Origin: Candidatus Eisenbacteria bacterium
GTDB lineage: Bacteria > Eisenbacteria > RBG-16-71-46
Direction of reading: 5' to 3'
Length of the DNA: 64,000 nucleotides
NCBI GenBank assembly: GCA_020847735.1
Contig: JADLBL010000015.1
Location: 248,001-312,000, forward strand
The position numbers and the translations under genes are program-made. The notes below the pieces were generated by a model that was given only the letters and a program-made list of their open reading frames with translations, ran no database searches and was not told where the DNA came from. Below are positions 38,388 to 41,642 of this stretch, piece by piece (position 1 is the first letter of the stretch; each line of letters starts with the position of its first letter).

Positions 38388-39539
38388 ATGTCCCGCATCA
38401 CCAGCGCCACGACCCGGCCCCTCAGCCGGATCCGCCCCTCGGGAGATCCCGGAAGGCTGCTGCTCCTGCCCGGGCAGGTCGTAAAGAGCCCCGAGACCGG
38501 CGTGAGCTACCACGTCGAATACCTGCTCGGCTCGGGCGGGTTCGGGCAGGCGTTTCGCGCCCGCCGCGACGACGACCCGCGCCAGCTCGTGTGCGTCAAG
38601 GCGAGCACGCACATGGACGGCTGGCTGCGCGAGGCCTACTTCGGACAGCTGCTCGAGGGTCAGCCGCGCGCGATCCGCGTGCACGACACGTTCCCGCTGG
38701 TGCTCGAGAACGGCTCGATCCTCTACTGCCTCGCGCTCGAGTACGCGCGCTACGGCGACCTGCGGCTGTTCCTGCGGCGCGCCGAACGGGCCTGGCCCGA
38801 GCGGCGGATCCGCACCGAGATCGCCGGCGTTCTCGAAGTGCTCGTCAAGCTCCACCGCGGCCAGCTCCTGCACCGCGATCTCACGCCGCTCAACGTGTTC
38901 GTCTGCGACGCGCAGGCGCTCAAGCTCGGCGACTTCGGCATCGCCCGCCAGCAAAGCGACCGTCGTGGCGTCACGGCGCGCACTATGAACTGGCTGACCG
39001 CGCCGACCGACATTCTCGAGGGCTCGGTGCCCAAGTGGCAGGCGCGCGACGACGTGTACCAGGTCGGCCAGTTGATCGGCATGCTGGTCCGCAAGGATGC
39101 CGACCGGCGCATCGGCACGGCGGACGTGCGCCGGCTCGATTGCAGCGACGAGCTCAAGGAGGTCGTCCACCGCTGCATCGGCGAGCGGCGCAAGCGCTAC
39201 GAAAGCGCCGACGAGCTGATCGAGGCGCTGCGGAAACGGCCGGCGGCGCTGCGCTCCGGGGGTCTGCGCTCGCTCAAGGGAGTGCACCTCGCGTTCACGG
39301 GCGTGCTGCGGCGGCCACGCGCCGACGCGGCCCGCGCGGCGCGCCGCGCGGGCGCGGTCGTGCACGGCGGACCTTCGGCGCAAACGACGGTGCTCGTGCG
39401 TGGACGGCCGAACGCGCTGCAGGCGGCCGGGCGCGACGCGGGGCTCAAGCTGATGGAGGTGAAGCGCCTGCGCGACAGGGGCCACCGCATCACGATCCTC
39501 GATGAAGCACGGTTCTGGCGGCTCGCCGCGAAGCGCTGA
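38388..39539 (+). CDS. Ser/Thr protein kinase fused to a C-terminal BRCT domain
   Basis: A 383-residue cytoplasmic protein. Residues ~40-285 are a Hanks-type kinase: glycine loop LGSGGFGQAF, VCVKAS lysine, catalytic loop LHRDLTPLNVF (around 163; the usual Lys-Pro-Glu is Thr-Pro-Leu), and DFG in LGDFGIARQ (around 183). The kinase is followed by ~85 residues that match BRCT domains of NAD-dependent DNA ligases: LKGVHLAFTGVL, AARRAGAVVHGG, TTVLVRG, and EARFWRLA at the end. BRCT modules bind phosphopeptides or DNA ends in repair proteins. A kinase joined to a BRCT module is unusual. No signal or membrane segment. Function and substrate are unknown. Confidence 0.88.
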   Translation: MSRITSATTRPLSRIRPSGDPGRLLLLPGQVVKSPETGVSYHVEYLLGSGGFGQAFRARRDDDPRQLVCVKASTHMDGWLREAYFGQLLEGQPRAIRVHDTFPLVLENGSILYCLALEYARYGDLRLFLRRAERAWPERRIRTEIAGVLEVLVKLHRGQLLHRDLTPLNVFVCDAQALKLGDFGIARQQSDRRGVTARTMNWLTAPTDILEGSVPKWQARDDVYQVGQLIGMLVRKDADRRIGTADVRRLDCSDELKEVVHRCIGERRKRYESADELIEALRKRPAALRSGGLRSLKGVHLAFTGVLRRPRADAARAARRAGAVVHGGPSAQTTVLVRGRPNALQAAGRDAGLKLMEVKRLRDRGHRITILDEARFWRLAAKR

Positions 39540-39662
39540 GACGCGTCCGCTGGGTGCCCGGGCCCGCCGGGCGCCCCGACGGCGTCGTGGAATGCGCCCG
39601 GCACGTCGGGCGCCCGCGCGGGCGCGCCACGGGCGCCTCGCCCCGGCAGGGGCCTGCGCTGA

Positions 39663-40229
39663 TCAGCGCAGGAGCATGGCCTTCTGCTTCGCCGCCTGAA
39701 CTCCGTTGACGACGAGCCGCGGGAGGTACTCACCGGGTCCGAGCATTCGAGCCCCCTGGCCGCGGCCGTCCCAGCCGAGCTGATGCCGCCCCGCGACCGC
39801 TGCGGCGTCGGCGGCAGTGACGATAGGGACCACCTTCACGACTCTCGCTCCGACACCGGACAGGAAGTGGTGACCGATCCGCGCGGCACGACCGTCCGCG
39901 GCGGTGTGCACCGTCATCGTGGCGCGCATCACCACGATGCCGTTGTGTCGCTGCTGGAGGTACGCGTGGGTCGCACCGTTGTGGTCGCTCGAGTAGATGT
40001 CGGTGACGATGACGTCCGTGAGGTCGGCTTCCTCCGGCCCCCATCTCGGCCCGATTGGCTCGAATGTGCTCGAATGCCCGTCCTATCGCCTCGACGCGCG
40101 AAATCGCGGTGACCGCGCCGGCTCCCGGTCCGGCCAGGGTCGGGCGCTTCGGCCACGAGTCCGGACGGTGCCGGCGACGGGTGCCGACGCGCATCCGCCT
40201 AGCAGTCGTAGGCCGGGAATGAAGCGCAT
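39663..40229 (-). pseudogene. Broken secreted protease: M36 FTP propeptide joined to FlgD-like domain
   Basis: On the minus strand the segments of a secreted M36 (fungalysin-type) protein lie in three reading frames. Export signal MRFIPGLRLLGGCASAPVAG begins at 40229. GRAFEHIRANRAEMG and, after a frame change at a C5/G5 tract (40038-40042), LTDVIVTDIYSSDHNG, THAYLQQRHNGI and MTVHTAADGRAARIGHHFL match the FTP propeptide of M36 peptidases. Instead of the 350-residue catalytic domain with HEXXH, the sequence passes straight into an FlgD/Ig-like C-terminal domain (GRHQLGWDGRGQGARMLG ... KQKAMLLR) that ends at 39663. So the catalytic domain is deleted and the reading frame disrupted. A homopolymer sequencing error could explain one shift, not the deletion. 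Confidence 0.75.
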
Positions 40230-40406
40230 GCACCCGAAGTCCGAAGGCCGAGGCGCGCTCAGCCGCCCCGGCCTTCGACTTCACGGAGGAGCGTCACCGG
40301 GCCGCTTGACCCGGCCCGCCGGCAACGCTGCAACTTCCCCCCGATCGGCGAAGCCGTCGGGCGTCTCCGCGGCGCCACTCGTTGCTGGTGGCCCGCTCCG
40401 CCCGCC

Positions 40407-41642
40407 TCAACGGACGACGACGAACCTTCCGAAGTCAACGCGTTCGCCGTGCTCGAGGCGCACGAGGTAGACACCCGCCGGCAGCTTGGAGCCTCCGGCC
40501 TCGCGCGCGTTCCACGCAACGTGATGCAGCCCTGCCGGCATCGGCCCTTCCGACAGCGTTCCGACGCGCCTTCCCCCGATGTCGAACACGTCGAGCCGAA
40601 TGTGCTCCTCGACGGGCAGTCTGAAGCTCAGCGTGATCGCCGAGCGGCAGGGATTGGGAGCGATCGAACGCAGCGCGGACTCCAACGGAATGGCCGGAGA
40701 GACGGCTGCCGGGCTGTCGTGGAACCGTTGCAGGCGGGAGTTCTGCTCGTCGGTGGCGTAGATGGAGCCGTCCAGGCCGATCGCGAGACCGCTCAGGCCC
40801 TGGAACTCCCCGGAACCGGTGCCGACGGCGCCCGTCGAGTCGAGCGGGGTGCCGTCCGGCGCGAACACGCGGATCAGCCCGTTCTCGTAGTCCGCGAGGA
40901 ACAGCTGCCCGCTTCCGTTCACCTCGATGTCGGTCGCGTTCTGCGCCCCCGTTTCGAAGGAGCCGAGATAGGTTCCGTCCGCCTGGTACTGCTCCACGAT
41001 CGGCGCGAGCCACTGGACGACGTGGATCACTCCGCCCCATTCGACCACTCCCGAGGGGTAGGTCGGGCCCTGGCTTGTCCAGTTGAGAATCGGCACTCCG
41101 GCGGCGGTGTACTTGTGCACGGACTGGTCGGAAAAGCCGCTCACGTACACGTCCCCCGCGGCGTCGAGGGCGACATGATCGGTGCGCTGTCCCGGCGTCG
41201 GCCAGGAGAACAGGAAGTTTCCGGAAGCGTCGAACTTCTCGATCCGCACCCCGACGTAGTCGCAGACGTACACGTCGCCGGCCGCGTCGAACGCCATGCC
41301 ATAGGGCGTCTGAAACTGCCCGTCGCCCGTGCCACTGCCGCCGAAGGCGAACAGCAGCTCGCCGCCCGTCGCCGCATACACGCGAATCGAGTCGTCGTTG
41401 CACGCGACCCAGACGCGGCCCGTCGGGTCCACCTCCACTTCGATAGGGTGCCCGGGCACGAACCACTCCTCGGCGAACGGCGGGAACGCGGCGGAAGGGG
41501 CGGCGAGCAGCGCACAAGCGGCGGCCGTCGCCCCCGCGGCGGAGAACCACCTGAGCGCGGCACGGCGGCGACGAAGCGGACGCTCCTGCGCGAGCCCGTC
41601 GCCACGAAGCAGGTTGGAAAGGAACGGAACGCGAAACGGCAT
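40407..41642 (-). CDS. Secreted NHL-repeat beta-propeller protein with FlgD-like C-terminal domain
   Basis: A 411-residue exported protein. The N-terminus is long and basic (RRRRAALRWF) before the hydrophobic core AAGATAAACALLAAPSAAF. Residues ~60-320 form NHL/6-bladed-propeller repeats, e.g. TPYGMAFDAAGDVYVCDY and LSGLAIGLDGSIYATDEQN. The last ~85 residues are an FlgD/Ig-like sorting domain (IAPNPCRSAITL ... AWNAREAGGSKLPAGVYLVRL) with a Cys not seen in the others. Such proteins are usually surface-bound or released and bind protein or sugar ligands; no enzyme is recognisable. GAGGAGG precedes ATG 41642. Confidence 0.88.
   Translation of the reverse strand: MPFRVPFLSNLLRGDGLAQERPLRRRRAALRWFSAAGATAAACALLAAPSAAFPPFAEEWFVPGHPIEVEVDPTGRVWVACNDDSIRVYAATGGELLFAFGGSGTGDGQFQTPYGMAFDAAGDVYVCDYVGVRIEKFDASGNFLFSWPTPGQRTDHVALDAAGDVYVSGFSDQSVHKYTAAGVPILNWTSQGPTYPSGVVEWGGVIHVVQWLAPIVEQYQADGTYLGSFETGAQNATDIEVNGSGQLFLADYENGLIRVFAPDGTPLDSTGAVGTGSGEFQGLSGLAIGLDGSIYATDEQNSRLQRFHDSPAAVSPAIPLESALRSIAPNPCRSAITLSFRLPVEEHIRLDVFDIGGRRVGTLSEGPMPAGLHHVAWNAREAGGSKLPAGVYLVRLEHGERVDFGRFVVVR

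Follow-up and report, generated by a model that had tools for sequence, protein, structure and literature searches.

Closest described systems

The closest described counterparts of the locus are the M36 (fungalysin-type) metalloproteases, which combine an FTP propeptide domain (PF07504) with a catalytic domain (PF02128) and are also represented by the NCBIfam model for T9SS-dependent M36 proteases (NF038113). The remnant analyzed here shares with them the FTP domain, the propeptide linker that follows it, and a C-terminal sorting-type domain. However, it lacks the catalytic domain, the second half of the propeptide, and a supported signal peptide, retains half of the sorting domain, and carries one frame break. 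M4 thermolysin-like proteases, such as one encoded in a relative (L057), also share the FTP domain, with weaker similarity. The match to M36 propeptides is far stronger, with phmmer scores of about 65 bits against Chloroflexi M36 loci versus 23 bits against L057.

The remnant occupies positions 39,663-40,101 on the minus strand of the window, a stretch of 64,000 nucleotides (G000:C15:248001-312000) from an assembly of 3.66 Mb in 27 contigs. Here an FTP propeptide domain precedes the second half of a FlgD-like C-terminal domain, and the M36 catalytic domain is missing. In our assessment, it is very probably a lineage-specific pseudogene of a secreted M36 metalloprotease.

A search for an intact M36 paralogue, as suggested with the initial annotation, retrieved a single gene on contig 18 that encodes 1294 aa (L001). 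This gene (L001:373-4257) matches NF038112, the model for myxosortase-dependent M36 proteases, with 1411 bits, just under the cut-off of 1500, and ends in a T9SS-type tail (TIGR04183). Family M36 and a C-terminal sorting tail are common to this paralogue and the remnant; the two differ in that the paralogue has NF038112 as its best model and a weak, divergent FTP domain (14.5 bits). It thus belongs to another subfamily, and the remnant is neither its descendant nor a recent copy of it.

FTP domain and assignment to the M36 family

The FTP propeptide reported in the initial annotation is readily recognizable, with a Pfam match to PF07504 (E 1.2e-9) above the curated cut-off. The domain core was placed at positions 39,873-40,010 on the minus strand by Pfam and by the genome-wide search, and the remnant also matches NF038113 (E 7e-7). 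Scanning GTDB species genomes with a DNA pattern for HNGxTHxYLQQ yielded 32 loci, the best of which are Chloroflexi M36 proteases (phmmer E 2e-19 to 9e-19, in the small set searched). The closest full-length relative tested is one of these intact Chloroflexi proteases (L144), a protein of 1062 residues with an FTP domain and a full M36 domain (PF02128, E 1.6e-154); it is identical to the remnant at 37 of 95 residues (39%), with zero gaps.

Similarly, the remnant scores 87 bits against a profile built from 31 M36 propeptides, compared with 59-138 bits for left-out intact members, a comparison that is somewhat biased because the search pattern preselects propeptides carrying that motif. These profile and alignment matches identify an M36-type, FTP-containing propeptide, and sequence comparison confirms M36 (fungalysin-type) as the parent family.

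No M36 catalytic domain with its HExxH zinc site was detected at the locus, in agreement with the initial annotation; within this genome, PF02128 matches contig 18 only. Judged by its domain content, the remnant is a relic of an M36 gene rather than a working member of the family.

Reading frames, deletion join, and FlgD-like tail

The main open frame on the minus strand spans 139 codons (40,082-39,666, with the stop at 39,663) and contains EEADLTDVIVTDIYSSDHNGATHAYLQQRHNGIVVMRATMTVHTAADGRAARIGHHFLSGVGARVVKVVPIVTAADAAAVAGRHQLGWDGRGQGARMLGPGEYLPRLVVNGVQAAKQKAMLLR, as read from a three-frame translation of positions 39,640-40,420. The FTP core, the linker, and the FlgD-like half all lie in this single frame, and the initial ~21 propeptide residues, SRVEAIGRAFEHIRANRAEMG (40,036-40,101, minus strand; G000:C15:288036-288101), which align with intact M36 propeptides, lie in another. 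The recognizable pieces are therefore distributed over two frames, not the three originally described.

The post-FTP linker (39,797-39,872, minus strand) includes the segments GARVVKVV (39,828-39,851) and PIVTAADAAAV and aligns without gaps to M36 propeptides, which identifies it as propeptide and not as FlgD-like sequence. M36 propeptides run ungapped through PIVTAADAAAVA, and the same ungapped alignment was obtained with a broader FTP profile and with single relatives; one Pro and one Ala of the stretch are invariant in a small alignment. GARVVKVV, earlier taken to be the deletion join, is a normal part of the linker, and a likeness between this linker and the opening part of the FlgD-like domain produces the apparent join there. 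The propeptide profile aligns gap-free as far as residue 105, through GARVVKVVPIVTAADAAAVAGR, and its end overlaps the start of the FlgD-like profile. Since the propeptide profile runs past GARVVKVV and the FlgD-like profile starts late, the join is placed about 20 residues further on, at 39,785-39,818 (minus strand), with the best position near AVAGRH. The join is in frame, and no deletion footprint is evident among the repeats near it. The parts lost comprise ~120 residues of the second half of the propeptide, the ~370-residue catalytic domain, whatever followed that domain before the tail, and the opening half of the FlgD-like domain.

The FlgD-like Ig/sorting segment (39,663-39,796, minus strand) ends at the stop codon. 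A FlgD-tail profile built from related genomes matches from position 43 (52 if trimmed) to position 93 of 93, and the Pfam model FlgD_ig (PF13860) matches only at positions 46-69 of 79, below its cut-off. The tail noted in the initial annotation is thus present, but only about half of it, the last ~42-50 of 93 profile positions, instead of a complete Ig-like sorting domain. Such a half domain is not expected of a designed fusion.

This half might have come from a second, neighbouring gene, in which case two decayed genes would be fused in the remnant. A separate source is favoured by the commonness of FlgD-like tails in this genome and by the other domains (P-domain, PPC, PxKF) found at the C termini of several among the closest M36 relatives from outside the phylum. 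The same-phylum M36 proteins L001 and L102, however, end in FlgD-like or sorting-type tails, so that one parent gene is enough, and we regard this variant of the pseudogene interpretation as unlikely, if still worth weighing.

Frame break, start codons, and the putative leader

The frame change lies in a run of five G (C5 on the plus strand) at positions 40,038-40,042. The break first noted at this run is present in the assembly as deposited, which is a single assembly. Downstream of it, the main frame has its first start codon, GTG, at 39,935, within the FTP domain.

The region initially annotated as a signal peptide (40,098-40,229, minus strand) begins with an ATG at 40,229. Its hydropathy, the simple measure by which signal peptides were judged here, is reached by 14% of the start codons in the window and is near the lowest found among intact relatives, and the stretch has no codon periodicity (0.72/0.77/0.72). 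By this measure, the candidate is not distinguishable from chance, and the data lend no support to a signal peptide. The other upstream frame contains no hydrophobic leader either, its best 11-residue hydropathy being 1.21, below that of all relatives.

Third-position GC in the remnant frame is 0.83, compared with 0.86-0.93 in intact neighbours. A value this near to that of the neighbours suggests that the decay is probably not old. It would reflect either recent decay or a remnant stretch that is still translated, and in this respect it counts against the pseudogene interpretation.

The frame change could itself be a sequencing or assembly error, in which case a short protein with an FTP domain and half a FlgD-like domain would still be produced, as a side effect of the deletion and with no clear function. 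That there is a single frame change, that it falls in a homopolymer run, and that the remainder of the frame runs through 139 codons without a stop and has a near-normal codon bias are all consistent with an error. Even if the break is ignored, however, the upstream frame provides no hydrophobic leader, and the FlgD-like domain is still present only as a half. Moreover, the completeness reported for the assembly, 99.56%, does not suggest pervasive frame errors. We consider it improbable that such a protein is made, and the verdict of a pseudogene does not depend on the G5 break, since the enzyme is lost through the deletion in any case.

Relatives and conservation

Queried with the FTP piece, neither the 19 further genomes of the family nor the 46 further genomes of the phylum yielded a relative at E 1e-3, and no match across 384 genomes of the domain went below E 8e-4. 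A peptide-pattern search of genome contigs with the same piece returned nothing, and plasmid searches gave no significant match. FTP relatives within the phylum are distant; all other FTP matches there sit in open frames of at least 299 residues, and at the 32 pattern-found loci HExxH is present in each FTP frame that stays within its locus, so that the complete relatives found outside the phylum have the zinc-protease motif after the FTP domain. Given these long frames and zinc motifs, no short stand-alone FTP-FlgD protein was seen in the phylum genomes or the 32 loci. A conserved FTP-Ig protein, which was named at the outset as the observation that would overturn decay, is thus absent from this set.

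These searches also bear on a possible role in trans, in which a secreted fragment of the FTP propeptide would hold back the M36 paralogue or some other protease. For fungal metalloproteases, inhibition of the mature enzymes by their propeptides has been reported (Markaryan 1996, as cited in PMC6117016), the FTP sequence of the remnant is largely intact, and the genome does contain an intact M36 gene. That paralogue, however, is of the myxosortase-dependent subfamily and has a weak and divergent FTP domain of its own, and the remnant has lost the second half of the propeptide and half of the export domain, has no signal peptide, and is interrupted by the frame break. With these parts missing and nothing conserved in the phylum genomes searched, an inhibitor is very improbable, and the original preference for decay over this role was right.

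A phase-variable tract would ordinarily be longer than five bases. Phase switching at the G5 run, for which the position of the break in a short homopolymer could be cited, is scarcely credible, given this length and because in neither state would a protease be encoded when the catalytic domain is absent. It is just as hard to credit that the enzyme-less gene has been re-used as a secreted, propeptide-type metalloprotease inhibitor whose expression is switched at that run.

Genomic surroundings

On one side, the remnant is flanked by a protein kinase gene (PF00069; window positions 38,388-39,539, plus strand), whose product has a C-terminal extension without a Pfam match. The kinase is 66-78% identical over its length in several family relatives and is therefore apparently under constraint. 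One orthologue (G010:C106:8807-9948; L131, L133) is split into two frames, which represents either a break or an assembly error. On the other side, an NHL-repeat protein adjoins the remnant on the same strand (40,407-41,642, minus strand); it has a FlgD-like tail that scores above the PF13860 cut-off.

Seven other genomes of the family retain the flanking kinase, and no M36 gene was found beside it; several of these kinase-bearing contigs end soon after the kinase. Comparison of synteny at the kinase in these seven genomes, with several contigs ending early, revealed no orthologous site, either empty or intact. In one relative (L134), the gene convergent with the kinase encodes an intact serine protease rather than an M36 protein, namely a subtilisin-like protein of 1609 aa with a FlgD tail (L134:1139-5968). 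This suggests that the kinase-adjacent spot gains and loses genes for secreted proteins.

A probable lineage-specific M36 pseudogene

Taken together, the domain matches, the join, the frame break, and the lack of a conserved short protein provide good support for decay with loss of the catalytic domain, as originally proposed. An essential domain is lost, the frame is disrupted (with a sequencing error at the G5 run possible), and no conservation was found. A large deletion would have taken the sequence from the middle of the propeptide through the middle of the FlgD-like sorting domain of an M36 gene. The frame change at the G5 run, together with the loss of a recognizable signal peptide, would part the remnant from any usable start. 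As far as the sequence allows a prediction, most likely no functional protein is made. We infer that a single deletion was involved, that one gene supplied all the pieces, and that the break did not arise as a sequencing error, and the order of events is reconstructed in the same way. The in-frame join could count against the pseudogene interpretation, as could the G5 break, which is possibly an error in the one assembly.

The locus, an ordinary pseudogene of little consequence, would record that one lineage has lost a secreted protease. It also carries a caution: in such remnants, the borders of domains should be set by aligning them with intact relatives.
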